Virus record (IMG/VR): IMGVR_UViG_3300010389_000004
Location: 1-64,000 of that record
Direction: 5' to 3' (one strand)
Length of the DNA stretch: 64,000 nt
Source: a virus
Shown here: piece after piece, positions 1,206 to 43,807 of the stretch
Layout: each line of letters begins with the position of its first letter
How positions within the stretch are numbered: the stretch's first letter is position 1
Position numbers and translations under genes: made by a program
The notes under the pieces: model-generated
Database searches by the model: none
Told to the model about the DNA's origin: nothing
What the model saw: only the letters and a program-made list of their open reading frames with translations

Positions 1206-2590
1206 CAGGAATACGCCCCCAAGAGTGAGTTCATGGATTGCTGAGCATCAGGCTCTTGGCGCACAGACGTCATAGCAGAGTCGGCTTCTTCCTCGGTCAA
1301 CTGCGCGACTTCGAAGTTGATTCGGAATGGAAGCTGCTGGAGCTTTTCACCTGTGCGGTGCTTCACCCAGTACATCCGCATTATGCGGTTGTGGTATTCT
1401 TCCTTCGTCTGGCAAAGAGCGATCATCACGTCAGCGATGTTTGCCTTTTCAATACAGTCAGACACGTCCTCAAGATTGACGATCTCGCTACCTTGCGATT
1501 TACGCCCGGCCTGGGTTGCGGTAATTAGCGCGAAGTCCATCGACACTGCAAGACCACGAATCTTCTGGAAGATGTCCTTCAGGCGCGAGTAATCATCCTG
1601 GCCAGGGCCATCCATCAGATCGCCGTAGTCCAAAACCACCGCCTCAACCGGAGCACCCCAACGCTGCTCAATGGATTTCAGGTATGCCCTGAGCATTGAG
1701 ACTGTCAGACCTCGCGTCGGGAATTGACGTACTGCCAGTGCTCCAACACCAGCCTGCACAAACTCTGCCCACTGACGGAGGACACCTGCGTTCTCTCGAT
1801 ACGCATAAGGGGGAATACCTGTCAGCGAGCTAATCAATTTGCAGGCGATCAGATTGGCTGATTGCTCCAAGCTGATATACACAACGCGCCTCTGATTTCT
1901 CACCAGGTCAGCAGCGAGTCCTGACATCACCGTGGTCTTGCCTGTGTTGGTCGGCGCCATGAATATCGTCATCTCACGCTTGCCAAAACCACCCGCCATG
2001 ATGCGATCGAACTTCGGGCGACCCGTCGGAAGAACCACACGGTGTTCGGGGTTCATCAGGTATTCCAGGGTACGGTCAATATCCGCCCCGAAGTCGAACG
2101 TCTCGGTGTCGGAGAGTGAAACGATATCCGATACCCGCAAGAACGAATTAGCAGCCGCAGACAGGTCTACCTCCTGGCCCGCCTTTACCTTCCCGGCAAT
2201 CTCCTTGAGAAGGATCTTCACGCGCTGCGTCCGCACCCACTGAAAGAGTTTGTCCTGGACGAACTGGCCATCGAGCGGAGGGGTAAATAGTAGCTGCTGA
2301 TTCTGGTACATCCACGACCGATACTGCGTCGCCAGATCCTCTGACTTCAGACGGCTCGCGTGCTCCTCAACGTAGTACTGGAAAATAGCAGGGCTAATCG
2401 GTGAGGCGTACTCCTGCAAAGCCTTGTAGCTGAATGACACACAGTCACTCAGGTACTTGCCGCCTAACACCTCTGAATCAAACACCTCAACGCCGGCCAC
2501 CTCGGAGACCTGTTGAGCTACGCGCATGTCGGAGTAAATCAACCGGACTACCGTTGTGGCGAAATCCGGTGGGAAGGTCTCGACGTTCAT
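1205..2590 (-). CDS. Replicative DNA helicase, DnaB-like
   Basis: RecA-fold hexameric helicase expected to unwind DNA at the replication fork. A helical N-terminal region of about 180 aa is followed by the ATPase domain: Walker A APTNTGKT near residues 212-219, Walker B AVVLDYGDLM near 317-326, then LITATQAGRK and a C-terminal MYWVKHRTG segment typical of the DnaB C domain. I chose the ATG at 2590 over an in-frame TTG three bases upstream, because the ATG overlaps the preceding stop (TGATG) and has GGAGAG four bases before it. That gives 461 aa. It lies directly upstream of the primase, the usual phage helicase-primase arrangement. Confidence 0.93.
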   Translation of the reverse strand: MNVETFPPDFATTVVRLIYSDMRVAQQVSEVAGVEVFDSEVLGGKYLSDCVSFSYKALQEYASPISPAIFQYYVEEHASRLKSEDLATQYRSWMYQNQQLLFTPPLDGQFVQDKLFQWVRTQRVKILLKEIAGKVKAGQEVDLSAAANSFLRVSDIVSLSDTETFDFGADIDRTLEYLMNPEHRVVLPTGRPKFDRIMAGGFGKREMTIFMAPTNTGKTTVMSGLAADLVRNQRRVVYISLEQSANLIACKLISSLTGIPPYAYRENAGVLRQWAEFVQAGVGALAVRQFPTRGLTVSMLRAYLKSIEQRWGAPVEAVVLDYGDLMDGPGQDDYSRLKDIFQKIRGLAVSMDFALITATQAGRKSQGSEIVNLEDVSDCIEKANIADVMIALCQTKEEYHNRIMRMYWVKHRTGEKLQQLPFRINFEVAQLTEEEADSAMTSVRQEPDAQQSMNSLLGAYS

Positions 2591-3180
2591 CAAACTCTCC
2601 GCCGCAACTCACAGAGCCAGGTGTAGTACGCGGCGTCCTCCCCACACATGCGGAAGACTTCCGCCGCGTGCGGGGGGACACTGACCAAGCCAGAATCTGA
2701 GAGGAATCGAAAATCCGCGTCTGTCACCAGGAACTCCCCTGACAACAACGCGGAACAATGCTGAATAGCGTCTCTACGGTTTTGGAATACCGCCCCCATC
2801 TGGGTAACGGTGTCTTCATCGGCGGACATCCCCATGAGGATGTAATCGGCCTGCGATTCGTTGAGTACGGACCCTTGGGCTTTCTTCGCTTCACGTCGTT
2901 TGTACACATCCCAAGCGTGCGCTGAGTTCAGCCACGCAGGACCGCGATTCGACGGCTTCAGAGGAACGGTGATATCCAGGAAGCGCTCGACCGACACACC
3001 CAACGACCGACACTTGGATACGAGAGAGACGAAGGTGTTGTAGTGTTTGCTGTGGCGCGGTCCTGACTTCGGGTGCCACATGAACACGCGCTTGCCTGCA
3101 ACGTCAGATAGTCTGCCCGCGTAGTGTCTGAGCGCCTGCTCAGCCTCTTCTTGCAGAAGCATTACTGCCATGCCTGCCAT
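2590..3180 (-). CDS. Unknown protein, first gene of helicase-primase operon
   Basis: A 196-aa protein I do not recognise. The frame stays open upstream to 3213, but that segment lies inside a strong terminator hairpin. The ATG at 3180 has GAGGTG four bases upstream and is the better start. The protein is soluble-looking with mixed charge, a basic central stretch (VYKRREAKKAQG) and no membrane segment or clear catalytic motif. Its position before the DnaB-like helicase, with overlapping stop and start, makes a helicase loader or other replication accessory plausible. That idea rests only on gene order. Confidence 0.75.
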   Translation of the reverse strand: MAGMAVMLLQEEAEQALRHYAGRLSDVAGKRVFMWHPKSGPRHSKHYNTFVSLVSKCRSLGVSVERFLDITVPLKPSNRGPAWLNSAHAWDVYKRREAKKAQGSVLNESQADYILMGMSADEDTVTQMGAVFQNRRDAIQHCSALLSGEFLVTDADFRFLSDSGLVSVPPHAAEVFRMCGEDAAYYTWLCELRRRV

Positions 3181-3192
3181 CGAGCACCTCGC

Positions 3193-3235
3193 AAAAAAGT
3201 TCGGCTCCCTCACCCGTCACAGGAGGGAGCCGAAC
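3193..3235 (-). terminator. Intrinsic terminator in the leader of the helicase-primase operon
   Basis: A perfect 13-bp inverted repeat (arms 3199-3211 and 3223-3235, 11-nt loop), read on the minus strand, is followed at once by six T. This is a classical rho-independent terminator. It lies only 13 nt before the ATG at 3180 and downstream of the divergent promoter region, so transcripts from that region must pass through it to reach the gene. It is therefore likely an attenuator. Confidence 0.85.
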
Positions 3236-3384
3236 CAAGCCGTCCACCTGGACGACCACCAGCAAGGGCACCAAACAAGACCACGGGTGTGACGGGTATG
3301 GTCTCGCTCGCAAGATGGTGAGGACGGCTGATGGAGCAACCGTCCTCGTATGACGTTGGAGCCGTGAGGTTTCTCCGTTGCCAT
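3217..3384 (-). CDS. Possible 55-aa leader peptide
   Basis: A small minus-strand frame starts at ATG 3384, six bases after AGGGTGG, and ends at a TGA inside the loop of the terminator at 3193-3235. The product is 55 aa with five tryptophans, four of them in its last third, and no recognisable domain. A reading frame ending inside an attenuator hairpin could control termination through ribosome position. Codon content is not distinctive, so this may equally be chance. Confidence 0.22.
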   Translation of the reverse strand: MATEKPHGSNVIRGRLLHQPSSPSCERDHTRHTRGLVWCPCWWSSRWTAWFGSLL

Positions 3385-3413
3385 GAGTACCACCCTAAGA
3401 CGAAAAGTTTAGG

Positions 3414-3428
3414 TGTCAAGACTTGACA
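3414..3428. promoter_or_regulatory. Palindrome with back-to-back TTGACA boxes
   Basis: TGTCAAG-A-CTTGACA is a perfect palindrome lying between two divergent operons. Each arm contains a consensus -35 hexamer pointing outward. Sixteen bases downstream there is TACTTT on the plus strand (3445-3450) and TAGGGT on the minus strand (3392-3397), both weak -10 matches. The symmetry suggests an operator where one regulator controls both promoters. A further TTGACA lies on the plus strand at 3495-3500 with no clear -10 partner. Confidence 0.5.
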
Positions 3429-3506
3429 CAGAAAATTCTTGCGGTACTTTTGTCCCCCTTGCTCACTTCCGGGGATACTCACCTATCCGAGCAGTTGACA
3501 GGATTG

Positions 3507-3576
3507 CACCGCAGCCACAGGTACGATCGGAGGGACCGGAATCTCTCCTTGAGTCCAGTGGCTGCGGTGTGTTTTT
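3507..3576 (+). terminator. Intrinsic terminator-like hairpin in the leader of the plus-strand operon
   Basis: A perfect 12-bp inverted repeat (CACCGCAGCCAC at 3507-3518, its complement at 3558-3569) encloses a 39-nt loop and is followed by TGTTTTT. The T-run ends 11 nt before the ATG at 3587. Together with the terminator on the other strand at 3193-3235 it gives a mirror-image layout in which both divergent operons begin with a leader hairpin. The large loop may fold further, so a riboswitch-like or attenuator function is possible. Confidence 0.7.
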
Positions 3577-3586
3577 GAGGGAAGCT

Positions 3587-4042
3587 ATGCAGAACCACCA
3601 GCCACCACAACCCGTCGGCACCCCGATCTCCGCGAGGGAGATCCACTCGGGGTGCTACATACCCCCCGAGGTGTTGAACGACCCGAAGCTCTCGCCGGCC
3701 GCGAAGCTCGTCTACGGTCGTCTGCGTTGGCACGCCCGAGACAAATCCTCCTGCTGGCCGGCAGTCGCTACTTTGAGTGAAGCGCTAGGCATGAACTCCT
3801 CAACGATTCATCGAGCGCTCAAGACTCTCAAAGACCAAGGCTATATCATGATCTCCGGCGCCAAGTTTCGAAACTCGACTTATACCTTCCTTTTACATAG
3901 GCGGTTCTTGAAAGCACCGTCCGATATGCAAGGTGCTCAGCACGGAGGGTATTCAGCGCAAATAACACAGCCCGTCTATTTCAACACCACTGTGAATTTG
4001 CCCCCGAATACTCAAAACCAGACTTTTGAGGGAGACCTGTGA
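3587..4042 (+). CDS. Winged helix-turn-helix replication or regulatory protein
   Basis: A 151-aa protein starting at the ATG preceded by GAGGG. Residues from about 27 to 95 match the helix-turn-helix domain seen at the N-terminus of many plasmid and phage replication initiators and regulators: a segment like LSPAAKLVYGRLRWHA, then a recognition-helix region around MNSSTIHRALKTLKDQGYI. The C-terminal third is Asn/Gln-rich and looks disordered. It is the first gene of the plus-strand replication and recombination operon. Just downstream lie 20-bp direct repeats (4051-4110) that could be its binding sites. Either an origin-binding protein or an operon regulator fits. Confidence 0.7.
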   Translation: MQNHQPPQPVGTPISAREIHSGCYIPPEVLNDPKLSPAAKLVYGRLRWHARDKSSCWPAVATLSEALGMNSSTIHRALKTLKDQGYIMISGAKFRNSTYTFLLHRRFLKAPSDMQGAQHGGYSAQITQPVYFNTTVNLPPNTQNQTFEGDL

Positions 4043-4050
4043 GGCAGCCT

Positions 4051-4110
4051 CACGGTGTGCAAATTGCAAGGGTGTCTTGCAAATTGCAACGGTGCCTTGC
4101 AAAAAGCGTC
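4051..4110. repeat. 20-bp direct repeats, possible iterons or operators
   Basis: TGCAAATTGCAA units begin at 4058 and 4078, and a partial third TGCAAA begins at 4098, a strict 20-bp spacing. Each unit continues with a similar GGTGtCT or GGTGcCT tail, and a partial tail (CGGTG) precedes the first. TTGCAA is itself self-complementary. The next 40 bases are A/G-rich. Their position directly after a winged-helix gene suggests binding sites for it, such as replication iterons or operators. Confidence 0.5.
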
Positions 4111-4145
4111 ACTAAAAGAGAAGTAAAAGAGTAGGAAAAGGAAGA

Positions 4146-4178
4146 AACTTCCTTCGGAAGTTATTGCGCGGGGCGCAA
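4146..4178 (+). promoter_or_regulatory. Two short hairpins just upstream of the helicase gene
   Basis: Two perfect inverted repeats follow each other: AACTTCC-TTC-GGAAGTT (4146-4162) and TTGCGC-GGG-GCGCAA (4164-4178). The GGAG ribosome binding site starts at 4181 and the ATG at 4192. There is no T-run, so they are not terminators. They may protect the 5' end of a processed mRNA or affect ribosome access. Confidence 0.4.
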
Positions 4179-4191
4179 CTGGAGTTTCAAA

Positions 4192-5607
4192 ATGATAGTT
4201 CGAATTCATGAAGGAAGACTGTTTTCCCGGATTGAGCTTCAAGCCCAAACCGAGGAAGAGTATTCAAACCCCATGCTTGCGGATGTAGCCGTAGCCGGAA
4301 TAAAGGAAGCGCTGACGGTATATAATAAGGACGGCGACCCATTCACCTCATTCTACCCGGAAGGGGTTCATGGCATCGCTCCACCGATGTCATTCCTGAA
4401 GGGACACACCGAGCGCCTCTGCACCTACCTCGCTGGCAGAGGTATCGGAGTGGAGTTCTACCCGGCCGACTTGATTGAGCAACGCCAGTCACCCCCGGAC
4501 TTCACCCCGCCCGTCGGGGAACTCATCAAGCTCCAGCCGTGGGCAGTGGAGAACATCGTCAAGCATCAGTACGGGATCATGAGCCTCTGTACGCGCTTCG
4601 GGAAGTCCTACGTGTACGCCGGCATGTACGTTGCACTCGGTAGGCCGCGCACGATGATGATCGCCAAGACGGTCACGATTGCTGAGCAGGTATCGCGTGA
4701 ATTGGCGAAGTGGTTGGGCGAGCCTGTCGGTGTCGTGTCGCACACGATCGGGAAAACAGCCTGGCACAACTTCAACGTCGGGATTGCGAAATCATTCTAC
4801 CCTCGAAATTCGAGTGAAATCCGTCCTGAGTATCGCCCCTTACTTGGTGGGCTTGAAATGCTCATCGTCGACGAGTGCCACTCGTTCGGATCGCAGATCC
4901 AAAGTCTGTACCACCACATGCCCGAATTGATTTGGTCTTGGGGAGGATCAGCAACTCCGTTCACCAAGGAGGTCGAGCAGCAGTTCTTGCTTGAGGGCTA
5001 CGCTGGCCCCGTGCGTATTGAGGCAAAGGCGAAGCTGTTGTCCGACTACGGGTATGTCGCCAAGCTCAACGTGTTCTGGTACCGGTTCAAGCACAGCACC
5101 CCCGAACCGAATGCCAAGTACCACGACCTCATCACCAAGCACATCGTTTTCGACGAACGCCGAAACCAACTCATCGCCAGCATCGCCTACGGTGAAATGG
5201 ACGCAGGTGGACAAGGTATTATCTTCGTCGATCGCGTCGAGCACGGCAAAGAGCTTTGCTCTCTCATCCCTGGGTCGGTGTTTGTTTCATCGACCACCAT
5301 GAACCGCAGTACGTCGAACGACACTCTGCGGCAATTCAACAACCGAGAGATTCCCGTCGTTATCACCACCAAGAAGTGGCGAGAAGGAGTTACGTTTCGA
5401 GCAGACTATGGCATCAACGCCGAAGGCGCCAACGCCGATCACGTCACCATCCAAAAGGTGGGGCGACCGTTGATGCCCAAAGAAGATCTTTCCGCCGTCC
5501 GGTGGTATGAGATTTGGGATCACGGGTTACAACCCTTTGAACGATGGTCCCAAACACGATACGCCTGTCTGCGCGATGAAGAATGGCCTCAGTCCTTTGT
5601 GGAGTAA
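4192..5607 (+). CDS. SF2 DNA helicase, UvsW-like
   Basis: A 471-aa superfamily 2 helicase. Motif I is TRFGKS (residues 134-139), a variant of GxGKT. Motif II is DECH (227-230), motif III GSATP (252-256), and motif VI QKVGRP (421-426). A segment LQPWAVENI (114-122) precedes motif I, like a Q-tip motif. T4 UvsW and related phage helicases have this size and motif set, and remodel branched DNA such as D-loops and stalled forks. Its place before a RecA-like gene in a recombination operon supports that role. The start has GGAG eight bases upstream. The N-terminal 110 aa are probably a substrate-binding domain; I do not recognise them. Confidence 0.85.
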   Translation: MIVRIHEGRLFSRIELQAQTEEEYSNPMLADVAVAGIKEALTVYNKDGDPFTSFYPEGVHGIAPPMSFLKGHTERLCTYLAGRGIGVEFYPADLIEQRQSPPDFTPPVGELIKLQPWAVENIVKHQYGIMSLCTRFGKSYVYAGMYVALGRPRTMMIAKTVTIAEQVSRELAKWLGEPVGVVSHTIGKTAWHNFNVGIAKSFYPRNSSEIRPEYRPLLGGLEMLIVDECHSFGSQIQSLYHHMPELIWSWGGSATPFTKEVEQQFLLEGYAGPVRIEAKAKLLSDYGYVAKLNVFWYRFKHSTPEPNAKYHDLITKHIVFDERRNQLIASIAYGEMDAGGQGIIFVDRVEHGKELCSLIPGSVFVSSTTMNRSTSNDTLRQFNNREIPVVITTKKWREGVTFRADYGINAEGANADHVTIQKVGRPLMPKEDLSAVRWYEIWDHGLQPFERWSQTRYACLRDEEWPQSFVE

Positions 5608-5614
5608 AACCAAC

Positions 5615-6970
5615 ATGGCAAAAAAGAAAAGCAGTGGTCCCGCCACTCTACGCGCCCTGAAACAGAGCTTCGTTGACCAAGGTGTTCGTCAACAAACTCA
5701 GGTCTCGTATATCCCGTTTCGGTCTGACTACCTGAACCTCTTGACGGGAGGTGGTATCCCCACCAACGGGTTCACCGAGATCTTCGGTGATCCTGGGATG
5801 TTCAAGTCCACCTTGGCGGCAGAGCTGTCAATCACCACGCTCCGCGACCTCGGTGGGGTACTGGTCATTCACGACACTGAGAACAAACTCAAGGACGATC
5901 GGTTTTCGTCTCTCGGTTTCCAATTGCCGAATGCTGAGGAGTCAGACCACTACTGGCGCTTCATTGGCAATTGGCCGAAGTACCGCCTTACGATCGAGGG
6001 TTATTTCCAGGATATGTCGCAGATCGTGTCATTGTCTCGCATGGAGGATCTGGCTCTCGCCAAGGAACGCCTACTTGACGGCACAATGCCGGATCGAGAA
6101 GTGTTCCTGTACCGAGCTTTCTGCGGGGCAAGTATCAAATCACCCGATGACGTGACGGACGCTCACCGCAAAGCGATCGAGAAGAACCTTGTCGAACCCG
6201 GACAGCTTCTTTCGCAGCACCGCCGGCTCATCTTGTCAATGATTGACTCAGCGTCTGCGTTGCCGGCAGAAGCGGAAGTTCCTGACGCGATAACGGGGAA
6301 GGTAGAGAAAGCGAACGTCGCTTTGAGGGCTGGGGTGTGGTCAGAGCAACTGCGTCGTTGGGGGTGGCTTGACGATCGAGTTGCTTGCCTACATATCGCG
6401 CAGAAAAGACTAGACCTGAAATTCAAAGGCCCGTCGTTCCAAAAAGCGGCCAGCACCACCGCGCAGAACTTTTACTACACCTTGCGCATCTCCCTGCGCA
6501 AAGCAGCGCAAGGGGCGCTGTACCGTCTCCCCGATGGCACGCTGTTGGAGCACGCAAAGGCGGAGACTGACGACAAGCACCACCAGGTGGGTAGCGTGAT
6601 CGTCGCAAAAACCGAGAAGTCGGCATTCGGTATTGGGACGAGTATTCCTTTGGTGATGTTGAACTTCTCAGGCACGGACGTCATCTGGTCAGCTTGGAAA
6701 ACGCTGCTTGCTCTGGGTCTCTTGAAACACACGAGCGGGGGATGGTACGCGTTCACGCACGACATCTTCATCCGCGAGCTTGGAGACCGAAAGGTCAACT
6801 TCCAGTCGTTCTTCGATCTGTACCGCGACCCTGACGAGGTGCAGCGTCTCGCTCGGGCCAGCATTGCCTACGTCCAATGGTTGCACACCGGCATCGTGCC
6901 AGAGACCGAGCCAACCAAGCCGAAAACTGTCAAGAAGAAGACCACCAAGAAGAAGGCTAAGAAGAAATGA
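5615..6970 (+). CDS. RecA/UvsX-like recombinase
   Basis: A 451-aa RecA-fold ATPase, likely the phage strand-exchange protein. The start at ATG 5615 follows GGAG and lies seven bases after the helicase stop; the frame is open further upstream but overlaps the helicase. Walker A is GDPGMFKST (58-66), an unusual form in which Met-Phe replaces the usual Ser-Gly before Lys. VLVIHDTENK (83-92) is similar to the phage-family strand after Walker A, and LILSMIDSASAL (205-216) is Walker B. A segment near 290-330 (HIAQKRLDL and following) may hold DNA-binding loops. The C-terminus is a lysine-rich tail (KKKTTKKKAKKK). It overlaps the next gene by four bases (ATGA). Confidence 0.85.
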   Translation: MAKKKSSGPATLRALKQSFVDQGVRQQTQVSYIPFRSDYLNLLTGGGIPTNGFTEIFGDPGMFKSTLAAELSITTLRDLGGVLVIHDTENKLKDDRFSSLGFQLPNAEESDHYWRFIGNWPKYRLTIEGYFQDMSQIVSLSRMEDLALAKERLLDGTMPDREVFLYRAFCGASIKSPDDVTDAHRKAIEKNLVEPGQLLSQHRRLILSMIDSASALPAEAEVPDAITGKVEKANVALRAGVWSEQLRRWGWLDDRVACLHIAQKRLDLKFKGPSFQKAASTTAQNFYYTLRISLRKAAQGALYRLPDGTLLEHAKAETDDKHHQVGSVIVAKTEKSAFGIGTSIPLVMLNFSGTDVIWSAWKTLLALGLLKHTSGGWYAFTHDIFIRELGDRKVNFQSFFDLYRDPDEVQRLARASIAYVQWLHTGIVPETEPTKPKTVKKKTTKKKAKKK

Positions 6971-7485
6971 TTTCGCAGGAAGCCCTGATGGGCTGGCTGC
7001 ACGAGGAACTGCGAACGTACCCGTGCTCCTACCCATCGCTTGAAATCATCCTGTCGTTGAAATACCCGCGCCTGGGTGAGTGTTTGCATAAGCTCCCCGG
7101 CGCCGGCGCCGAGGTGTATTTCACCGACCCCGCTTGGTCGAATTACCTGGTCTCTTACGAGATTCAAACACAAGGAGCGAGAGCTGCGCAATACCACCAC
7201 GAATTCGTTACCAGCACTCTGAAGCAGATCGAACAGACACGAAGGCCTTCATCAACCCAGGAGATTCTGTTCGTGTACCTGAGCTGCTGGCGATGGGCGG
7301 CGGGAATGAACACAACCCCCTACCCTTGGTCTCAGTGGTGTGAGAGCTGGTATCAGCTATTCGAGATTCTGGTGAGAACGGACAAAGACTTCATGTCCTC
7401 CACCAGCAAGATTCACCCGAACGATTTCTGGTGGTATTTGGAACGCGTCTTTGACGGCACGCTCCTTCAGTACCTCCCAAGCTAG
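6967..7485 (+). CDS. Unknown protein in the recombination operon
   Basis: A 172-aa protein that I do not recognise. It is rich in aromatic residues, especially tryptophan, in its C-terminal half (for example CWRWAAG and the NDFWWYLERVF region), with no membrane helix or obvious metal site. Its ATG overlaps the recombinase TGA, so it is translationally coupled to RecA. This suggests a recombination mediator or accessory factor, but only gene position supports that. Confidence 0.75.
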   Translation: MISQEALMGWLHEELRTYPCSYPSLEIILSLKYPRLGECLHKLPGAGAEVYFTDPAWSNYLVSYEIQTQGARAAQYHHEFVTSTLKQIEQTRRPSSTQEILFVYLSCWRWAAGMNTTPYPWSQWCESWYQLFEILVRTDKDFMSSTSKIHPNDFWWYLERVFDGTLLQYLPS

Positions 7486-7492
7486 GAGCAAC

Positions 7493-8482
7493 ATGGCTAA
7501 CCTGATTATCGACATGCACAACCTGATGCATAGGGCCGCACACGCGTACTCGTCGCTGTGGAGCTATAACACCCGAACAGGGGAAAAGGAGTTCACGGGA
7601 CTCTACCACGGCATCTTCATGATGATGTCCTCCTATGTGAAGCTGTTCTCACCGGACTACATTTTCATCTGCTCTGACTTCAAGCAGCGTGACAACTCGT
7701 GGAGGCACCAACTGTATCCCGAGTACAAGGCCGCCCGGAAGAAGGACCGTAAGCCTGAAGACCAACGTAGGTACGACGCGATCAACAACCAGGCGGACAC
7801 CTTGCGCTGGATCTTCCAGCATATGCGCGTGGCGTTTCTTGAAGCCCCCGGGTACGAAGCTGACGACATTATCGCCACTCTCGTTACCCGCGAGCTTGCG
7901 GGGCAGGACAACACCATTGTCTCGACAGATAAGGACCTGTGGCAACTCACGCCGTATGCGCGAGTCTACTACCCAGGGCAGAAGAAGGTCATTGATCTGA
8001 ACCCTGTAATGTTCTCGGCTGAAGTAGCTGAGTACATCAATGCCAAGAACAAGCCTGGGGACAGAGTGCTCTATTTGAATACCCCAGAGTCGTGGGTTAT
8101 CTACCGAGCGCTGCTGGGGGACTCGTCGGACAATATCCCAAGCATCGCCGGCATGGGGCCGAAGCGCGTGAAGGAGTTCATGCTTGCGATCGACTACCGC
8201 TCGGTAGCTGAAGGCATCGAGCATGTGAAAGCCACCAACCCCAAGATGGCCGGCACGAAATGGTTCCAGGAGTTGTGCAGCGAAGAGGGACAAAGCACAT
8301 ACCACCGGAACCTGGAACTCATGCGTCTCCCGAACCCTCGGTTCACGAAGCGGCTGCCTCAGCTACGGGATACGAACTACACCCCCTACGCCAAACAGCT
8401 CTTGACCGAGTGGGCTTTGCGCTGCTTCAGCCCTGAAATGAAGCAGCTTTCTGAGTGCCTGTTTTTGCAGAGGTTTGCCTGA
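7493..8482 (+). CDS. 5'-3' exonuclease / flap endonuclease (FEN family)
   Basis: A 329-aa nuclease of the PIN-fold FEN family, like T5 D15, T4 RNase H and the polymerase I 5' nuclease. Start ATG 7493 is preceded by AGGAG. Visible landmarks: LIIDMHNLMHR at the N-terminus with the first acidic residue; YKAAR (the helical-arch basic motif); EADDIIATL; STDKDLWQL; and LLGDSSDNIPSIAGMGPKR, the H3TH DNA-binding motif with its metal-binding aspartates. It would remove RNA primers and resect 5' ends to make substrates for the recombinase. It overlaps the next gene (TGATG). Confidence 0.92.
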   Translation: MANLIIDMHNLMHRAAHAYSSLWSYNTRTGEKEFTGLYHGIFMMMSSYVKLFSPDYIFICSDFKQRDNSWRHQLYPEYKAARKKDRKPEDQRRYDAINNQADTLRWIFQHMRVAFLEAPGYEADDIIATLVTRELAGQDNTIVSTDKDLWQLTPYARVYYPGQKKVIDLNPVMFSAEVAEYINAKNKPGDRVLYLNTPESWVIYRALLGDSSDNIPSIAGMGPKRVKEFMLAIDYRSVAEGIEHVKATNPKMAGTKWFQELCSEEGQSTYHRNLELMRLPNPRFTKRLPQLRDTNYTPYAKQLLTEWALRCFSPEMKQLSECLFLQRFA

Positions 8483-9528
8483 TGTATTCAACTCACGTCG
8501 AGGTCCCCGTCGCCATCATCGGCGGAGACCACCACATCCATGCCTGGAGTCAATCGAACTACCCCACCGAGTCGGGAGCGGGGTCTAGGATTGACAGGTC
8601 GCTCGCGTCACTCCAGGAAGCGGTCAACCTTGCCCGGCAATACAAAACCAACCGCGTGATTCTCAATGGCGACCTCTTCCACACCAAGAACTCGATCCAC
8701 CCGATCGTGTTGGAAGAGACGATGCGTCTGCTTGAGCAAAACTCGGATATCTGGTTTATCCTGAATACGGGAAACCACGAGCGCCCCAACAAGCACTCAA
8801 ACCGAAGCACGTTGTCAGCTCTCGATCGCCTTGACAACTGCACGGTAATCAAGAAGCCGGTGGTTTTCGACATCGGGCTCGATGCTGCCTTCCTGCCGTA
8901 CTACAGCGATTACGCGAGCATCACCGAGCGGGTGGAAGATCTCTATGCGTGTCAGTACGCAGCAAGCTCCTCGCAAGGGTCGGTGCTGATTGCTCACTAC
9001 CCGCTGTTCGGCGCCGACATCGGCAGCATCCGCCTGGACTCAGGCCCCAAGATCGAACAGTTCCGACCGGAGCTATTCGACCTCCTGCTGTTCAGCGATA
9101 TCCACCAGCGTCAGCAGGTAGCCGGCACGGACAATGCCATCCACTTGGGAGCGACGCACGCGAACGTCTTCAGCGAGGAGAAGTACACCTGCGGGTGGTG
9201 GTTGTTGGGAGTCGACACCCGCAAAGACGTGCCGGCGATATCGGCGCTACCGACGAAAATCCCAGGGTTGCGCACCGTGTGGAGCGAGGAAGAGAAGAAG
9301 AAATACGAGTCCGAAGGGTACGTTGTAAAGCTCGCGCTTAGCGAAATCGTGAAGCAGACGCAGAGGCAGTCGGATATCGCTGCCGGCGACGTTCCGAAGA
9401 TCTCGTACACAGGCAGCCTGACAAACCTCATCTCTGAGTACGTCAGGTATAACGACGATATCCCCGACTCCATGAAACCTGGGGTTATGGCGAAGGTGAC
9501 GGAGTGTTTCCGAGGAGGACAAGCATGA
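8482..9528 (+). CDS. SbcD/Mre11-like nuclease subunit (T4 gp47-like)
   Basis: A 348-aa calcineurin-like metallophosphoesterase. The ordered metal motifs are visible: GGDHHIH near the N-terminus, LNGDLFH, NTGNHER, IAHYPL and FSDIHQ. With the ATPase gene that overlaps its end, it should form an Mre11-Rad50/SbcCD complex that trims double-strand ends and cleaves hairpins. ATG 8482 overlaps the FEN stop. A charged segment around EEEKKKYESEG precedes the C-terminal region, which in this family contacts the ATPase. The usual residues all appear present. Confidence 0.92.
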   Translation: MYSTHVEVPVAIIGGDHHIHAWSQSNYPTESGAGSRIDRSLASLQEAVNLARQYKTNRVILNGDLFHTKNSIHPIVLEETMRLLEQNSDIWFILNTGNHERPNKHSNRSTLSALDRLDNCTVIKKPVVFDIGLDAAFLPYYSDYASITERVEDLYACQYAASSSQGSVLIAHYPLFGADIGSIRLDSGPKIEQFRPELFDLLLFSDIHQRQQVAGTDNAIHLGATHANVFSEEKYTCGWWLLGVDTRKDVPAISALPTKIPGLRTVWSEEEKKKYESEGYVVKLALSEIVKQTQRQSDIAAGDVPKISYTGSLTNLISEYVRYNDDIPDSMKPGVMAKVTECFRGGQA

Positions 9529-11375
9529 GGATATACGCCTCAAACTTCAGAGGGTACGAGGAAGCCTACGCGGAGTTCGCAGGGAACCGATGCATCGTGG
9601 TGCTCGGCGAAAACCGTGATGCAGACTACGCTGCCTCAAACGCTTCGGGCAAAACCACACTCGCCCTTCATCTGGTCTCATGGGCGCTATACGGGAAATA
9701 CCCGGGACAGCGCTCTGCTGACTCGGTGATCCGTGAGGGTGAGAAGTCCTGCTCGGTGGACTGTGAGTTTCACAGTCGCGCAACAGGGCAGCACTTCAAG
9801 GTTGTTCGCAGCCGCGGGCCAAACGTCCTGACCTTCTACGTTGACGGGAGCCAGGTATCAGGGGATATCACCTCAGTCCAAAGAGCTATTGAGGAGTCCA
9901 TTGGAGTTCCTTACGACGTGTTCCACAGGGTATGTGTCTACACGGGCGACGGCTCTGCTTTCGCCAGGTTGACGGACGCTGCGCAAAAGGAAACTCTGCG
10001 GACACTGTTCCCCGTTGATTTCACCGAAGCGCTCTCAGCGGCGAAGATTCAACACCGGTTTTCGGAAGACGCGGTACTGCAAGCCCGTACCCGCGTGCAG
10101 TACATAACGGCTGAGTGCGACAAGCTGAAGGAAGATATTCAGGTTCAGCAGGCGGCTCAGGGCACTGAAGAGGCTACAAACGACTTGCTGGAGCAATGGA
10201 CGGCAGCAAGGAACGAATACCACAACCAACTCCAAGCGTTTGCCTCTACCCGCGAGGAATGGTCGAAGTATTTCAATCAGTACCAGCGGTACTTGGACTT
10301 CGAGAACAAACAGCTTGAGCAACTGGATCTTCAAATATCTCAGCGAATGCGTGACATCACCGCGATGAATGACACCACGAATCGCCTGACGCAACTACAG
10401 CAACAGCTTCACGCGCAAATCACACAAGCAAACGAATACCGGTGCCCTACCTGCAACCAAGGTCTGCCGGAAGCCACCAAGACCGAGGTCATTAACAAGT
10501 TGCGGGGTGAGTTTGAATCGGCCGCACAAAGCATTCAGCAGACGGCCGCGGCGCTTCAGGCGACGACCGCAGACCTGGAGTCACTGCGAGAAGCTCACAC
10601 GCAAGGCACACAGAGCGTTTCATTCCACAACGCGCAGTGGAAGGCAGCACGGGACGAGCACGCCCGCGTTGAACAACACGCTCGCGCATTGCAGCAAAGC
10701 TACGACCAAGCTCAGAACATGCTCGACCAGATCATGCACCAGCGCCCTGGGTCAAGCACGTTAGAGGTGCTGGTCAGCAATCTGGAAGCAAAGTCCCGCA
10801 GCTTGGCAGAGGAAACCCAGGTTTTACGAAACGAGGAAGCCAACGTGTTGGAGTGGGCTGCGGCAGTGAAGGCGTTAGGCCTCAAAGGGATCCAACACTA
10901 TGCGTTTGCCTCTCTGTGTAAACCCATCTCGGATGTTGCAAACGCCGTCCTTCAGAAGTTCTCAGAGAACCAACTCAAGGTCGAGCTGCTGAGTGAGGCT
11001 GAAGCGTCAAACGGCAAGTCATCAAAGGCAGGGCTACACGTCGCCGCCAGCAGCACCACAGGCGGTCACTGGTATTCAGAGCTTTCCCGGAGCGAGAAGG
11101 CACGGGTAGACATCGCTATCTTCCTGTCGTTGTTCGTGCTCTTCCTACCCAGAGCGAACATTGCGCCGGTACTCATCCTGGATGAGGTTGCGGACGCTAT
11201 GGATGAGATCGGCAAAGAAGATACCATTGCGGTATTGCAGGAGTTCTGTGAGACCTACGGGGTAACAGCGCTTATTACTACCAATGACGCAAGCATCACC
11301 ACCGCTGTGAGCGACTGGTACCTCTGCGTGAAGAAAGACGGAGTGTCAAGTGCCGAACGAATCCACGAGTCTTGA
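9525..11375 (+). CDS. SbcC/Rad50-like ATPase subunit (T4 gp46-like)
   Basis: A 616-aa SMC-like ATPase. The N-terminal Walker A is NASGKTT (39-45). A long coiled coil, rich in Gln/Glu heptads, covers about residues 190-430 and is interrupted by a zinc-hook CPTC (Cys307, Cys310). The C-terminus carries LSRSEKARVDIA, in the place of the ABC signature, and Walker B LILDEVADAMD, then ALITTND. The coiled coil is short compared with cellular Rad50 and similar to T4 gp46. ATG 9525 follows CGAGGAGG and overlaps the nuclease stop by four bases, as expected for two subunits of one complex. Confidence 0.93.
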   Translation: MRIYASNFRGYEEAYAEFAGNRCIVVLGENRDADYAASNASGKTTLALHLVSWALYGKYPGQRSADSVIREGEKSCSVDCEFHSRATGQHFKVVRSRGPNVLTFYVDGSQVSGDITSVQRAIEESIGVPYDVFHRVCVYTGDGSAFARLTDAAQKETLRTLFPVDFTEALSAAKIQHRFSEDAVLQARTRVQYITAECDKLKEDIQVQQAAQGTEEATNDLLEQWTAARNEYHNQLQAFASTREEWSKYFNQYQRYLDFENKQLEQLDLQISQRMRDITAMNDTTNRLTQLQQQLHAQITQANEYRCPTCNQGLPEATKTEVINKLRGEFESAAQSIQQTAAALQATTADLESLREAHTQGTQSVSFHNAQWKAARDEHARVEQHARALQQSYDQAQNMLDQIMHQRPGSSTLEVLVSNLEAKSRSLAEETQVLRNEEANVLEWAAAVKALGLKGIQHYAFASLCKPISDVANAVLQKFSENQLKVELLSEAEASNGKSSKAGLHVAASSTTGGHWYSELSRSEKARVDIAIFLSLFVLFLPRANIAPVLILDEVADAMDEIGKEDTIAVLQEFCETYGVTALITTNDASITTAVSDWYLCVKKDGVSSAERIHES

Positions 11376-11802
11376 AATACACAATGACACCACCTTCTTC
11401 CTCACATACTTCCTGCTCTCAGGGCACTCCGGGAAAGTTGAGGCGGTAAATCGAAACCCGCTGAGGGTTTTCCAAGAGCCGTCGCTTTGGGTGACTGTGG
11501 AAGACCGTCTGCACCTGCGTAGAGATCAGATCGCCTATGCTTTCTGCCACAACGACGCGGAGCTGCCCCCTCAGATCGCGCTGCTGGCGCAAGAGGGCGT
11601 ACCTTACTTCCAAGGCAAAGGATACCGGTACCACTTCAACCTCAACACAGGTAAGCGGGTCTCTCTGCCGTCGTTCTTCAAGCTTGCGCCTCAGCACCTG
11701 AATTTCGACTGGCTTGCCTTGGAATATGGCTACATCAACATGTCGATCGTGGAAAGCGTAATGTGCGTCGACGAAGAGTTTGATCCAGGAGATCAGTGGT
11801 AA
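11350..11802 (+). CDS. Unknown protein between SbcC-like and RuvC-like genes
   Basis: A 150-aa protein, starting most likely at GTG 11350, six bases after GGAG, inside the end of the SbcC-like gene (26-nt overlap). No family recognised. It has mixed alpha/beta character, a short hydrophobic stretch at the N-terminus (FFLTYFLLS) and no cysteine pairs suggesting a metal site. Its stop overlaps the next ATG (TAATG). Position in the operon suggests a role in DNA processing. Confidence 0.7.
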   Translation: MPNESTSLEIHNDTTFFLTYFLLSGHSGKVEAVNRNPLRVFQEPSLWVTVEDRLHLRRDQIAYAFCHNDAELPPQIALLAQEGVPYFQGKGYRYHFNLNTGKRVSLPSFFKLAPQHLNFDWLALEYGYINMSIVESVMCVDEEFDPGDQW

Positions 11803-12581
11803 TGCCAACCCCTATCGTAAACATCAAAGGCATCGTCGGAATTGACAGCGGGTTTGCCACCCAGGGTGTGTGCTGTATCGGCTTCAGCCGCGGCCCCACC
11901 ATTCTTCACGTCGCCTCAACGGTAGCCACCGCCAAGAAGGGCGTGGATGACGTCATCCCTCGGATGAAAGCTCAGATTGCCGTAGCCAAGCAGCAAGTCG
12001 AGATGCTCCAGAGTCTCCCTGGCGACGGGGTGGTTCTGGTAGGCCGCGAGACGTGGGCAGCAGCCGGCGGAGTGAAGAACGCGAAGACGGGCTACCTTCG
12101 TGGGTGGTACGACGGCTTGCTTGTTGACTGCTTGGAACGAATCGGCGCGTTCCCTGTTGACGTCACACCAACCAACACGTCAATGCTCTCCAACCCTGGG
12201 GGTATGGTGCTGCGTGGCAAGAAGTCCTCCCCGCCGGCGGAAGTGGCCGCCTTCCTGGAGAGCAGCTACAAGCAATTCATCCACAACCTGTCCGCGCACA
12301 TGTTGAGTGACCCTGGCGGCCCCTATGGGAATGTCCTGAACCTCACGCAAGAGGGGTGGGTTCCGTCAAAGTCAAAAAGCCACCTGAGCCACGGGGTGGA
12401 CGCAACGGTGATCGCCATCGCTCTTCTTGCCAGCACCATCGCCCCAGCTATGATGAGACTACGCGGTCCAAGACAGGTGCAGGTAGTCGAGTCGTTGTAT
12501 GCCCAAATCATCAACAAATTCAATGCTGGACAACCAGCGAGCTTCCTACCTTGCGACCAGGCTTCAGGACGTGACGCTTGA
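11802..12581 (+). CDS. RuvC-like Holliday junction resolvase
   Basis: A protein of about 259 aa with an RNase H-like fold. GIVGIDSGFATQG near the N-terminus supplies the first catalytic Asp. LVGRETW in the middle gives an acidic residue, and SHGVDATVIAIAL near residue 200 matches the C-terminal HxxDAxxIA motif of RuvC-type resolvases. These enzymes cut four-way junctions, which a phage needs to debranch DNA before packaging. AGGAG lies ten bases before ATG 11802. An in-frame GTG at 11796, four bases after AGGAG, is an equally possible start adding two residues. Confidence 0.75.
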   Translation: MPTPIVNIKGIVGIDSGFATQGVCCIGFSRGPTILHVASTVATAKKGVDDVIPRMKAQIAVAKQQVEMLQSLPGDGVVLVGRETWAAAGGVKNAKTGYLRGWYDGLLVDCLERIGAFPVDVTPTNTSMLSNPGGMVLRGKKSSPPAEVAAFLESSYKQFIHNLSAHMLSDPGGPYGNVLNLTQEGWVPSKSKSHLSHGVDATVIAIALLASTIAPAMMRLRGPRQVQVVESLYAQIINKFNAGQPASFLPCDQASGRDA

Positions 12582-13299
12582 TCAACCTGAAGAGAACGCT
12601 CTCCAACAGGAGTTCTGGGAACTCCTAACCCCTAAGTTCATGCCGGCGACGATTCGGCACTTCTCCGGGAACCTCCGCGATGACCAGGTGGAAGACCTGG
12701 TTTCCGACATCTTCCATAAGCTGTGTTCCCGCATCTACGACTTCTCCCCCAGTAAGGGGACGTTCTTCAATTGGGCTGTCACCGCCATTCGAAATCACTG
12801 CATCGACGTCGCACGAAAGCGCGGGGCAGTGTCTGAGTCCGCGGGAGGGTTCACGTTAGAGCGGATCCCCAGCATGACCACCGACCCCGACTCAGAAGAC
12901 TCAGCGTCCGCGTCCACGTTGTTCCTGACCCGAGTCATCCGCCGACTGCCTTTCGAGCTGCACTCATGGCAAGTCATGGAGATCATCTCGATCGCCCACA
13001 GACACAAACTCCGCACCACCGATGTCTGCGTGAAGAAGATTACCGCGGCGCTCAAGTCTTGGGGAATCGACATCACGGACTTCGGTGTCCCAAAGTCCGT
13101 GTGCGAGGGGATATTCATGGTATTCAGGATTCAGCTTATGGCTGACCAGCCTGAGTTCTTCGGCCAGGTCATGCAGAAGCTTGCGGGGTGGGGAGGGTTT
13201 GACCAAACCCGAGCCTTGGTCGATGAGTTTGGGGCAGAGCTTGTCTGCCGGCTGGTGTTGGCGGCCGGCGGTGAAAAGATTTCCCTGCCTAAACCCTAA
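12499..13299 (+). CDS. ECF-like RNA polymerase sigma factor (region 2)
   Basis: A 266-aa protein whose residues about 55-110 closely resemble sigma-70 region 2 of the ECF type: DQVEDLVSDIFHKL, then FSPSKGTFFNWAVTAIRN and HCIDVARKRG, the core-binding and -10 recognition helices. The second half does not look like a canonical region 4, so it may be a divergent phage late sigma factor that binds another protein for -35 contact. The start is uncertain: ATG 12499 overlaps the previous gene by 83 bases with a weak ribosome site, while ATG 12523 and GTG 12571 are alternatives. It is the last gene of the plus-strand operon, facing the end of the late operon. Confidence 0.7.
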   Translation: MPKSSTNSMLDNQRASYLATRLQDVTLDQPEENALQQEFWELLTPKFMPATIRHFSGNLRDDQVEDLVSDIFHKLCSRIYDFSPSKGTFFNWAVTAIRNHCIDVARKRGAVSESAGGFTLERIPSMTTDPDSEDSASASTLFLTRVIRRLPFELHSWQVMEIISIAHRHKLRTTDVCVKKITAALKSWGIDITDFGVPKSVCEGIFMVFRIQLMADQPEFFGQVMQKLAGWGGFDQTRALVDEFGAELVCRLVLAAGGEKISLPKP

Positions 13300-13304
13300 G
13301 TCTA

Positions 13305-14609
13305 CTAAAACAGAGGCATGAACGCGTTGGAGATCTCTCCCCACGCGTTGAACTGACAGCACGGCACCAGTTCGTGCAGGTTGGCTGTCACGCACTCATA
13401 CTGCAAAACACCCACAGGGCGTGAGAGTGCGTAGTTCTCCGTGCCGTCAGCCGTCCACGACGGCGTACCCAACCCGCCTGAGTCAAACTGAAGCATCTCA
13501 GTTGTCAGGGTAGGGCTATCGGCTGACTCAAACGTAACCCCAAGCGTAGGGTCGGCTACCCCTTCCGCCATGAGATCCAGCGAGTAGATAGCTCGGGCTC
13601 CTGAAGGCCACCCGATCGTGTCGACGTCCGCCCGCTGGAATAGCTTCGGCGATGGGATCTCAGCGTACACATCTGGAGGGTTGGACGAACTCATCATGTC
13701 TTTTGAAGAAGACACCATCAGGGAGCGCTGAGCGTGCTGCCAGGCATGGCAGTAATACCGCTCAGCCACAGCCGCCGTGTAAGGCAGCAAAGAAGGCGCC
13801 GGCGAATCGGCTCGACGGCGTGGGTTCGCACTGGCGTAGAGTGAGTGAATCTTCAGAGCAAAAGAATTCGCGCTCTCCAGCAGCACACCAATCTCGAAGT
13901 AGGTTGCATTCTCCGAGGGCACTACAGTAAGCACCTCAGTTACCTCGGTTCCGTTTGCGAACGTCGTAACTGATTGCTCCTCGACTCGCGTCTCGCCAGA
14001 CACCGTGTCGTTCCACGCAGCGTACAGCCGACCCCAGCCGCTCTCGATCGTGGTGTACCGGATCGAGATCGTGATGGTCTTTCCTGCCCACATCTCTGGC
14101 GGCGCGTGGAAGGAAACGGGCTGGAAGATTACAGGCAGCTCTTCGTTCGGCAGGTCCACCGTGCGAGTACCGCTGGAGAATGCGAAAGAAGCAGAGTAGT
14201 CGCCAGAATCTTGAGTGCCCGGAGTACCGGCGGCGGCCAGCAGATCCTTCTGGATGAACCACCCGACGAATTGCGTGGGAACGTATTCCGTCCCGCCAGA
14301 CCCGACGACGCCTGTCAACCCACCTGTCCCCAGGTTTTGGAAACCACTGGTTGCCACCAAGCCCGACGCAAGCGGGAAGCTCTGCGCTTTCGAGAGCAGA
14401 TTCAGCCAACGCGTAATTCGGAAGTCACCATTCACCTCAAGCGTGGGCGGGTGGTTGAGGTCTTGCACGTTGGTGGCAGAAGAAAACTCGGAATAGATAG
14501 CCTGCATCGCCGAGGTGATCTTCGTGAAATTCCCGTTGATGTCGTTGACGTAGTTCCCCGCGTCAATGGGGTTTGCAAGCGCATTTGCGCCGACTAGTGG
14601 CGTTGGCAT
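13305..14609 (-). CDS. Putative tail fibre or tail-tip appendage protein
   Basis: A 434-aa protein at the distal end of the late operon. The N-terminus (MPTPLVGANALANPIDA) resembles starts of phage tail-fibre or receptor-binding proteins that attach to the tail. The body is rich in Thr/Ser/Gly and predicted beta-structure, with segments like FQPVSFHAPPEMWAGKTITISI that look like a carbohydrate-binding beta-sandwich. AGGAG lies six bases before the ATG. As the last structural gene after the tape measure and hub genes it is a reasonable candidate for host recognition. No enzymatic motif is visible. Confidence 0.6.
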   Translation of the reverse strand: MPTPLVGANALANPIDAGNYVNDINGNFTKITSAMQAIYSEFSSATNVQDLNHPPTLEVNGDFRITRWLNLLSKAQSFPLASGLVATSGFQNLGTGGLTGVVGSGGTEYVPTQFVGWFIQKDLLAAAGTPGTQDSGDYSASFAFSSGTRTVDLPNEELPVIFQPVSFHAPPEMWAGKTITISIRYTTIESGWGRLYAAWNDTVSGETRVEEQSVTTFANGTEVTEVLTVVPSENATYFEIGVLLESANSFALKIHSLYASANPRRRADSPAPSLLPYTAAVAERYYCHAWQHAQRSLMVSSSKDMMSSSNPPDVYAEIPSPKLFQRADVDTIGWPSGARAIYSLDLMAEGVADPTLGVTFESADSPTLTTEMLQFDSGGLGTPSWTADGTENYALSRPVGVLQYECVTANLHELVPCCQFNAWGEISNAFMPLF

Positions 14610-35696: not shown

Positions 35697-36170
35697 TCAG
35701 GAGGACACCAGGCCCTCCCAATTCTTCTCAATTCGCGCAATCTCCTGCTCAGATAGCTCGGTTGCGCTACGTTCCGCTTCTTCCCAGGTCTTCCCGCTGA
35801 CATCCCCGACAGACCAGGGCGAGTCAATCTTCCGACCCGTGAACTTCGCCATCGCTGCATCCAATTTACGCGCCATCTGCAACACCTTGACCTGCTTAGC
35901 CCGCAGCTTGTCTTCCTCAGCCTGCTGCTTGCGCTCAACGGGACTGGGGTTTTTGCTGGAGAAGAGAAATTCCAGCTCCCGGTCCATGTCGCTGATGCTG
36001 TTGTCCAACGATTCGTTGAACTCCTTGGCGTGTTTGGCGGCCTCTTTGCTTAGAAGTCCTGCCAACGACAAAGAGAGAGCGCCTTGTAGTCGACGTCCCT
36101 CTTCCAGTTTGGATTTTATGCAGAGCATGATGTGAGCTTTGAACTGCCCGAGGGTCATGCTCTCCCGCAT
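35697..36170 (-). CDS. Tail assembly chaperone, frameshift extension (GT-type)
   Basis: The downstream half of a lambda G/GT-like tail chaperone pair. As a stand-alone frame it would start at ATG 36170 (157 aa, helical and highly charged). But the same frame is open well upstream of that ATG, overlaps the end of the first chaperone gene in the -1 frame, and reads as plausible protein there (ELSVLTGENLLVRNGFGLAE). I therefore infer it is made as a fusion by slippage at 36371-36377, adding 224 aa to the first chaperone's N-terminal part. The fusion would bind the tape measure during tail assembly. Confidence 0.8.
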   Translation of the reverse strand: MRESMTLGQFKAHIMLCIKSKLEEGRRLQGALSLSLAGLLSKEAAKHAKEFNESLDNSISDMDRELEFLFSSKNPSPVERKQQAEEDKLRAKQVKVLQMARKLDAAMAKFTGRKIDSPWSVGDVSGKTWEEAERSATELSEQEIARIEKNWEGLVSS

Positions 36171-42208: not shown

Positions 42209-42994
42209 TTAGTCTCCCCAGTTGATTCTCTTCACTTGCGCGACCAGTTCGGCGTGCAAGGCTTCCGTGCGAGAGAAGGACGCATCCAAGAGCTTCTTCT
42301 TCTTCTTCTTCTTACCGAGATCTTCAAGCACTCGATCAAGCGCCTTGGCTTCCTTCTCTGCCTCACTCAGCTTGCGCTCTGCCGCACGGACCTCGGCTTG
42401 ATCCTCGGGGTCCGCCGCATCCAAAGGGTCTTTGAACTTCCCAGCCACCTCGCTTCGGTGCCAGTCGTGGACCCGCCCAACGATCATCCCGCCGACAACG
42501 AGTATAGCCCCAAACCCAAGAAACGTTTTCAACCCCACTGAGAAAGCTGCTGCTGCTGTCTTCCCCGCAGCTATGGCCGCTTTCTCCAACAGCGCAGACG
42601 AGACTAAGGTAGTCGCAGCCCCCGCGATCGCCGCGGTGTACAAACCCCAGTGCCGGAGTATGTAGGGCTCCATGTCGGAAATCTCTCGGGCGTACTTGGA
42701 CGCTGACTCAGCTACTGCGGAAAGCTGTGCAGCTTTCGTTTCAGCCCCGCTTGCAGAAGAAGTCTTGGGCAGGTGATCCAAAATACGATCGGCTTCCTTG
42801 CGGACCCTTTCAAACGCGTCAGCCAGGTCATCCACGTTGTAGGACCAAGCCTTCTTAGCTGTCGCGTGATCCAGCTTAGCCTGCTTGATCGACTGGTCGA
42901 TCTCGCGCATTTCCTTTTTGGCCTTATTGAAGGCATTGTCAATGTCGTTGAGATCCTTATTCAGATCTCGTTCATCGTAAGAAAACCAACCCAT
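42209..42994 (-). CDS. Coiled-coil membrane-like protein, paralogue B
   Basis: A 261-aa protein sharing its first 37 residues (MGWFSYDERDLNKDLNDID and following) almost exactly with the neighbour at 43034-43807. It also shares the segment KKAWSYNVDDLA, a pair of Ala/Gly-rich hydrophobic helices in the middle (about 115-165), and a C-terminal coiled coil with KLSEAEKEAKALDRVLEDLGK. A run of seven lysines replaces four in the paralogue. It starts after AGGAGAAATC, identical to the paralogue. The pair arose by tandem duplication. Candidates are virion membrane proteins or lysis/exclusion factors; none can be proved from sequence. Confidence 0.75.
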   Translation of the reverse strand: MGWFSYDERDLNKDLNDIDNAFNKAKKEMREIDQSIKQAKLDHATAKKAWSYNVDDLADAFERVRKEADRILDHLPKTSSASGAETKAAQLSAVAESASKYAREISDMEPYILRHWGLYTAAIAGAATTLVSSALLEKAAIAAGKTAAAAFSVGLKTFLGFGAILVVGGMIVGRVHDWHRSEVAGKFKDPLDAADPEDQAEVRAAERKLSEAEKEAKALDRVLEDLGKKKKKKKLLDASFSRTEALHAELVAQVKRINWGD

Positions 42995-43033: not shown

Positions 43034-43807
43034 TTACTCGTCCCAGTTGGCTTTCTTGGCTTGGGACACCAGAGCGGAGTGCAGAGACTCCATGCGCGTG
43101 AACGCGGCGTCCAAGAGCTTCTTCTTCTTGCCGAGGTCTTCCACCACGCGGTCGAGTTCCTTGGCTTCCTTCTCTGCTTCGGAGAGCTTCTTCTCAGCCT
43201 CGCGGGTTTTCGACTGCTCCAACGGATCGAGAGCTTTCAAAGGGTCTTTGAACTCCTTGGTGACGGTGTTCTTCACCCAGTCCCAAAAGCGTCCGCCCAC
43301 CATCGACAGACCAATAGCTACCGGAGCGGCTGCGATCATCGCGCCAGTGCCGATAGCAAGAGCACCCGCAGCCGAAGCCCCGAGAGCTGCTACGACCTGG
43401 CCGACTTGAAGACCCACGGCTACCGAATTCGAAGCACCCGACACTGCGCCGAGTAGCAACGTCCAGTGACGAATGAGGCGAGGCTCCAATTCAGAAACCT
43501 GCTTCGCGTAGTCTTGAGCTGACTTCGCCACCGTCGCCAACTGAGAGGCCTTATCAGCAAGGTCAGACTTGCCGGATTTGTCCATTTTGCTTTGGATGCG
43601 TTCGGCCTCATCCACAACGTCCTTGAAGGCTCTCGCCAAGTCATCCACGTTGTAGGACCAAGCCTTCTTGGAAGAACTCGAATTCAGCTTGGCGCCTTTG
43701 ATCGACTGGTCGATCTCGCGCATTTCCTTTTTGGCCTTATTGAAGGCATTGTCAATGTCGTTGAGGTCCTTATTCAGGTCTCGTTCATCGTAAGAAAACC
43801 AACCCAT
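43034..43807 (-). CDS. Coiled-coil membrane-like protein, paralogue A
   Basis: A 257-aa protein and upstream member of a tandem pair with 42209-42994. Order of parts: nearly identical N-terminal helix (1-37), KKAWSYNVDDLA (about 47-58), a divergent coiled coil, two hydrophobic Ala/Gly-rich helices (about 118-165, for example GTGAMIAAAPVAIGLSMVGG), FKDPL-LDP linker, and a C-terminal coiled coil. AGGAG lies five bases before the ATG. A homing-endonuclease gene lies just upstream. The two hydrophobic helices suggest insertion into a membrane or a hydrophobic assembly. Confidence 0.75.
   Translation of the reverse strand: MGWFSYDERDLNKDLNDIDNAFNKAKKEMREIDQSIKGAKLNSSSSKKAWSYNVDDLARAFKDVVDEAERIQSKMDKSGKSDLADKASQLATVAKSAQDYAKQVSELEPRLIRHWTLLLGAVSGASNSVAVGLQVGQVVAALGASAAGALAIGTGAMIAAAPVAIGLSMVGGRFWDWVKNTVTKEFKDPLKALDPLEQSKTREAEKKLSEAEKEAKELDRVVEDLGKKKKLLDAAFTRMESLHSALVSQAKKANWDE

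Follow-up and report, generated by a model that had tools for sequence, protein, structure and literature searches.

Back-to-back -35 boxes and leader terminators in a candidate divergent control region of a phage

How is transcription divided between two operons that leave the same intergenic region of a phage in opposite directions? The window examined here comprises bases 1-64,000 of the 94,081-base IMG/VR virus record IMGVR_UViG_3300010389_000004. The minus strand carries almost all genes of this phage, and a rightward block at 3587-13299 is the exception. The first gene of this block (3587-4042, plus strand) encodes an HTH_36 protein resembling replication initiators; a helicase and a UvsX/RecA-like protein are also encoded in it, and its last gene (12499-13299, plus strand) matches the profile of sigma-70 region 2 and is a candidate late sigma factor. 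Leftward from 3180 there is a gene without assigned function (2590-3180, minus strand; no family at cut-off), followed by genes for a DnaB-like helicase and a primase. Searches of the available collections turned up no close relative for this phage. A DNA search with 2590-4700 against phages gave zero matches, and so did tblastn against phages with the RecA-like protein and the protein at the capsid position. Relatives were not found in viral contigs by single-protein scans with the HTH protein, the helicase, the terminase and a polymerase fragment, nor in genome contigs scanned with the DnaB protein. The terminase, DnaB and portal-position proteins have distant matches only, all below 60% identity, with those listed at about 21-29%. 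As a separate observation, 42209-42994 and 43034-43807 on the minus strand are adjacent paralogous genes whose N-termini are nearly identical. Two proteins (L006:14006-15424 and L007:1735-3171) contain long Pro/Gln-rich QQQGFAPPPAQ repeats.

The initial annotation had described one palindrome carrying two outward TTGACA boxes between the two operons, and this is confirmed. The palindrome at 3414-3428 is 15 bp long, TGTCAAGACTTGACA (TGTCAAG-A-CTTGACA), and perfect around its centre base. Sequence search and promoter ranking identify it as two outward -35 boxes placed back to back (TGTCAA-GAC-TTGACA). Only one exact copy exists in the 94,081-base record, in which the expected number of exact TTGACA pairs placed back to back at this distance is about 0.003. 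On both sides a TANNNT follows at N16, and pattern matching gives a plus promoter candidate, TTGACA-N16-TACTTT, at 3423-3450 (-10 box 3445-3450) and a minus promoter candidate, TTGACA-N16-TAGGGT, at 3392-3419 on the minus strand (-10 box 3397-3392). The chance of finding TANNNT at 15-18 bp on one side is p ~0.044, and the pattern TTGACA-N14-20-TANNNT has four matches in the whole record, two of which are these candidates. The E. coli -10 matrix places them 8th and 15th among 188,082 positions; a looser TANNNT matrix, picked after the site had been seen, places them 1st and 2nd. The layout is that of back-to-back divergent sigma-70-type promoters, with outward -35 boxes and a -10 box at 15-18 bp on each side, though both -10 boxes are weak and poor by E. 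coli standards. A standard strict scan detected neither a sigma-70 site nor the leader hairpins described below, because it accepts no loop longer than 8 and requires a better -10. Transcription from the plus candidate is predicted to begin in a pyrimidine run, as read by eye from the sequence, and the spacing would put the minus start at or beside an ATG at 3384. Divergent promoters at 3392-3450 are supported by sequence.

Must such a striking phage palindrome be an operator, or could two -35 boxes fused together account for it? A survey separates the two readings. Viral contigs were scanned for the palindrome with any centre base, which gave at least 119 stretches, and for a scrambled palindrome, TGACAAGNCTTGTCA, as a control, which gave 84 stretches in a complete scan, 80 of them classified; the genes around both kinds of site were called with a crude gene caller. 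Among the matches listed, 52 of 119 palindrome loci have TANNNT at 15-18 bp on both sides, compared with 0 of 80 control loci (Fisher p 7e-15, loci being counted without correction for relatedness), and these 52 group into 26 clusters by similar context. Again among the matches listed, 56 of 119 palindrome loci are located within coding sequence while the number in the control is 63 of 80, and 21 of 119 are located between divergent genes against 2 of 80. A second viral scan was anchored on one right-hand TATAAT and took in 119 of 120 stretches, yielding 115 unique -35 pairs. Almost every gap between 1 and 30 bp was represented among the back-to-back pairs, and 58 of the 115 had a left TANNNT. 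A special 3-bp spacing of the boxes was considered and rejected, as gap 3 is found in 4 of the 115 unique pairs, with no excess. The palindrome therefore would need no regulator, since the layout recurs in viruses and -35 pairs occur at almost every spacing; it appears to be one geometry among back-to-back promoters, an ordinary design. As a side observation, in the viral loci L019, L032, L037, L016, L132 and others the -35 palindrome has near-consensus -10 boxes on both sides, a phage divergent-promoter layout that could be catalogued.

What, then, of the shared regulator that had been proposed to act at the palindrome, with the winged-helix protein as its candidate? The proposal amounts to one repressor, the 3587-4042 product, binding the palindrome and switching both operons. 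It draws on the perfection of the palindrome around its centre base, on its overlap with both -35 boxes, and on an HTH protein being encoded next to it. However, the -35 boxes already account for the palindrome, and a second operator is absent. Repressor-operator switches and L5-like stoperators have several operator copies, while here there is a single site in the window with up to 3 mismatches allowed and a single exact site in the record, so the locus does not fall into that class. The family profile of the protein is also initiator-like. The product is only 151 aa long, matches HTH_36, and its matches span the N-terminal part of most profiles. Of its 19 PHROG families, 16 belong to DNA metabolism (initiators, O-like, DnaD-like, primosomal), three are of unknown function and none belongs to transcription regulation; its NCBIfam regulator matches are weak and below cut-off. 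In its winged-helix domain the product fits the replication initiators of the HTH_36/O-like kind, whose other feature is a helicase-loader part at the C-terminus. What is more, a 20-bp tandem direct repeat, 90% identical (4058-4097, plus strand), lies directly behind the protein's own gene; it may represent initiator-binding iterons and seems a more natural target for the protein than the palindrome. We take the product to be an initiator, not a switch protein, and nothing in the sequence appears to call for a repressor overlaid on the palindrome; the proposal is improbable, and neither the shared regulator nor the regulatory role of the winged-helix protein is upheld. An early-to-late switch would be better assigned to the sigma-70 region 2 protein at 12499-13299. 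Behind the 4058-4097 repeat there is an A-rich stretch (4106-4160), and the region looks like an origin; a clear turning point in GC skew was not found.

The other part of the proposal, a terminator hairpin directly before the first gene of each operon, is borne out. The minus leader terminator (3193-3235, minus strand) has arms 3199-3211/3223-3235 with 13 perfect pairs, an 11-nt loop and a T6 run. In the plus leader terminator (3507-3577, plus strand) the arms 3507-3521/3555-3569 are 15 nt long and match at 93%, with a single mismatch; they enclose a 33-nt loop, and the T-rich tail TGTTTTTG follows. Both are GC-rich stems followed by a sense-strand T-run, as in intrinsic terminators. Because the distance from stem end to start codon is only 17 nt (minus) and 15 nt (plus), there is no room for a promoter behind either hairpin, and since neither has an upstream gene on its own strand, they are true leader elements. 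Each stands between a predicted promoter and the first gene, which is the position of an attenuator, and from this arrangement conditional termination is a plausible and sensible reading. The mirror symmetry described for the region is loose. The promoters are symmetric at N16, but the leaders differ in length and folding, the minus leader having about 190 nt and the plus leader about 120 nt.

Is there any sign that termination could be conditional? The minus leader RNA (3181-3386, minus strand) is strongly folded: its predicted energy is -98.6 kcal/mol, where shuffles average -74.4 (z -5.59; 0 of 200 shuffles equal it). A candidate antiterminator is predicted at 3215-3254 (minus strand), where 3254-3244 pairs with 3226-3215. 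In a transcript that ends at 3212 this predicted fold excludes the terminator, an outcome given by one among the several transcript lengths that were folded; after synthesis of the 3' arm, and at full length, the terminator wins the predicted fold. In addition, 10 nt at 3288-3297 (minus strand) could pair without a mismatch to the loop of the terminator (3212-3221), a complementarity that 5 of 3000 shuffles reach. Rfam 15 gave no leader match at gathering score and one sub-threshold match elsewhere. From these predictions it looks as if the minus leader could open or close through its own folding or translation, and if it is a real attenuator, RNA folding or host translation state would gate the phage replication genes. 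For the plus leader, folding is z -3.14 against shuffles, and fold prediction found no convincing antiterminator; a plus-leader ORF was dropped, having a TTG start, no ribosome site and codon usage that is not gene-like. Thus, of the attenuation that had been suggested for both operons, leader terminators crossed by both transcripts stand, with a predicted antiterminator on the minus side and none convincing on the plus side; attenuation is plausible, and the minus leader gives it its best support.

Translation enters because the minus leader contains an ORF of 55 codons (3217-3384, minus strand). It begins at ATG 3384, where transcription is predicted to start, its stop lies in the terminator loop, and it has Trp at codons 39, 43, 44, 48 and 51. 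Five Trp codons within 14 are found nowhere else in the record in any frame. In shuffled minus leaders, 4 of 2000 reach five Trp in 14, and 18 of 2000 reach five for any of twelve amino acids. The ORF lacks a ribosome site and differs from the phage genes in codon usage, so that its translation is putative. In a ribosome masking calculation, with a footprint size chosen by the analyst, a ribosome at codon 51 or beyond leaves 0 pairs of the terminator 5' arm, one at codon 48 leaves 7 of 13, and one at codons 39-44 leaves 12-13. Attenuators of the pyrBI/trp type have a leader ORF, a terminator before the first gene and an antiterminator alternative. The minus leader resembles them in its leader ORF, in its terminator before the first gene and in its candidate antiterminator; it differs in that phage replication genes follow and in that the ORF has neither ribosome site nor gene-like codon usage. 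The minus leader could then be a ribosome-mediated attenuator with a leaderless Trp-rich peptide, where a ribosome that slows at Trp 48/51, or translates as far as the stop, would cover the terminator arm and allow read-through into the helicase and primase genes. We regard this as improbable; if true, phage replication would be gated by how much tryptophan the host supplies or by how fast it translates. A literature search over titles and abstract openings, mostly excluding subscription journals, did not find ribosome-mediated or Trp-codon attenuation in phages.

The observed sequences, positions, folds and statistics can be joined in the following scenario. Two host-type promoters would share one common back-to-back -35 block, and since the block is shared, RNA polymerase probably occupies one promoter at a time. 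Leftward transcription would lead to the DnaB-helicase and primase genes, and rightward transcription to the genes for the initiator-like protein, the helicase and recombination. Just ahead of the first ribosome site, each RNA is predicted to run into an intrinsic terminator; the majority of early transcripts should therefore stop as short leaders while read-through feeds the genes. Minus-side read-through is probably conditional, with the antiterminator fold excluding the terminator, or alternatively with a ribosome close behind polymerase holding the terminator open. We give an even chance to this reading as a whole, that is, an early divergent control region with a promoter pair and leader terminators, in which read-through feeds the genes and is conditional on the minus side.

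Do the hairpins have to act on the RNAs that start between them? They might instead be insulators, with late leftward antisense transcription through the plus operon being halted at 3235-3193 before it enters the replication genes. The convergent operons near 13.3 kb are separated by a gap of 5 bp, no terminator-like hairpin was found on either strand at 12900-13700 (loops 3-14, score >=15), and nearly all genes outside 3587-13299 are on the minus strand, all of which suits this explanation. Yet it leaves the plus hairpin unexplained, where strong rightward transcription is not expected to arrive, and with both promoters located between the hairpins their own RNAs must still pass; we consider it unlikely. 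Slightly less likely again is a role of the hairpins in stabilising the 5'-UTR or in processing, ahead of the ribosome site, as a genome-wide habit with little termination. In the whole record, 12 of the 39 upstream gaps of at least 35 nt contain a hairpin that a T-run follows, at a distance of 5-62 nt from the start codon (the gene list for this count had three called ORFs removed and two added by hand), whereas 40 shuffled runs gave 0 such gaps in 37 runs and 1 in three. There are also a few strong 5' hairpins without a T-run (35697-36170, 66203-66622), as stabilisers would allow. Against this, the T-runs are sense in 12 gaps and antisense in 2, as terminators predict, and in 10 of the 12 gaps the preceding gene has the same orientation, so that the hairpin may simply end that gene.

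These counts point to a phage that places terminators ahead of many of its own genes. With one crude gene caller throughout, which recovers 7 and not 12 hairpin gaps in this phage, the proportion is 7 of 44 gaps against 63 of 1423 in 228 viral loci (Fisher p 0.004). The frequency is elevated, not unique. A search of 260 nt to each side detected a leader terminator at 0 of the 52 other bidirectional viral loci, and the promoter palindrome together with leader terminators does not appear to be a recurrent module.

How does the arrangement compare with known systems? In E. coli bidirectional promoters, a -10 element is shared with -35 hexamers on either side, and the polymerases can compete (PMC12825309). 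One DNA block serves divergent transcription in both cases; here the -35 boxes abut and separate -10 boxes lie outside, in contrast to the shared -10. The available part of PMC12825309 presents no phage cases. In Cluster O mycobacteriophages, which carry a 17-bp repeat, the mRNAs from the divergent promoters PL1 and PR2 start at the first gene's codon, according to the part of PMC4351075 available. Points of likeness are SigA-like divergent promoters that share an intergenic region close to the left end, mRNAs predicted to be leaderless, and dispersed stem-loop terminators, whereas here a leader and a terminator intervene before the first gene (PMC4351075). Cluster K mycobacteriophages have extended start-associated sequences, inverted repeats with a common consensus and with a 13-bp start sequence (PMC3203893, available part). 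They are similar in having inverted repeats just upstream of the starts of a gene subset in one genome, while in this phage the hairpins inspected differ in sequence from one another and most are followed by a T-run (PMC3203893).

Some minor observations concern the hairpin-bearing genes elsewhere in the record. A TTGC motif, picked after looking, is present within 35 nt before 8 of the 12 hairpins against a 12% background, which is suggestive; CCCTTGC was also tried and is not specific. On the minus strand, the late-promoter pattern TTGCNN-N17-TRYTMT occurs four times in the record (70703, 57582, 50030, 47265), each time upstream of a hairpin-bearing gene, the pattern being derived from the same four sites that it matches. 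At three of the four, the hairpin contains the -10 part, which may mean that the terminator has a promoter nested within it. At 67404-67442 of the record (L006:7405-7443, minus strand), the 3' arm of a hairpin includes the ribosome site (AGGAG) of the following gene, with 5 nt left to the ATG, and this may indicate translational control.
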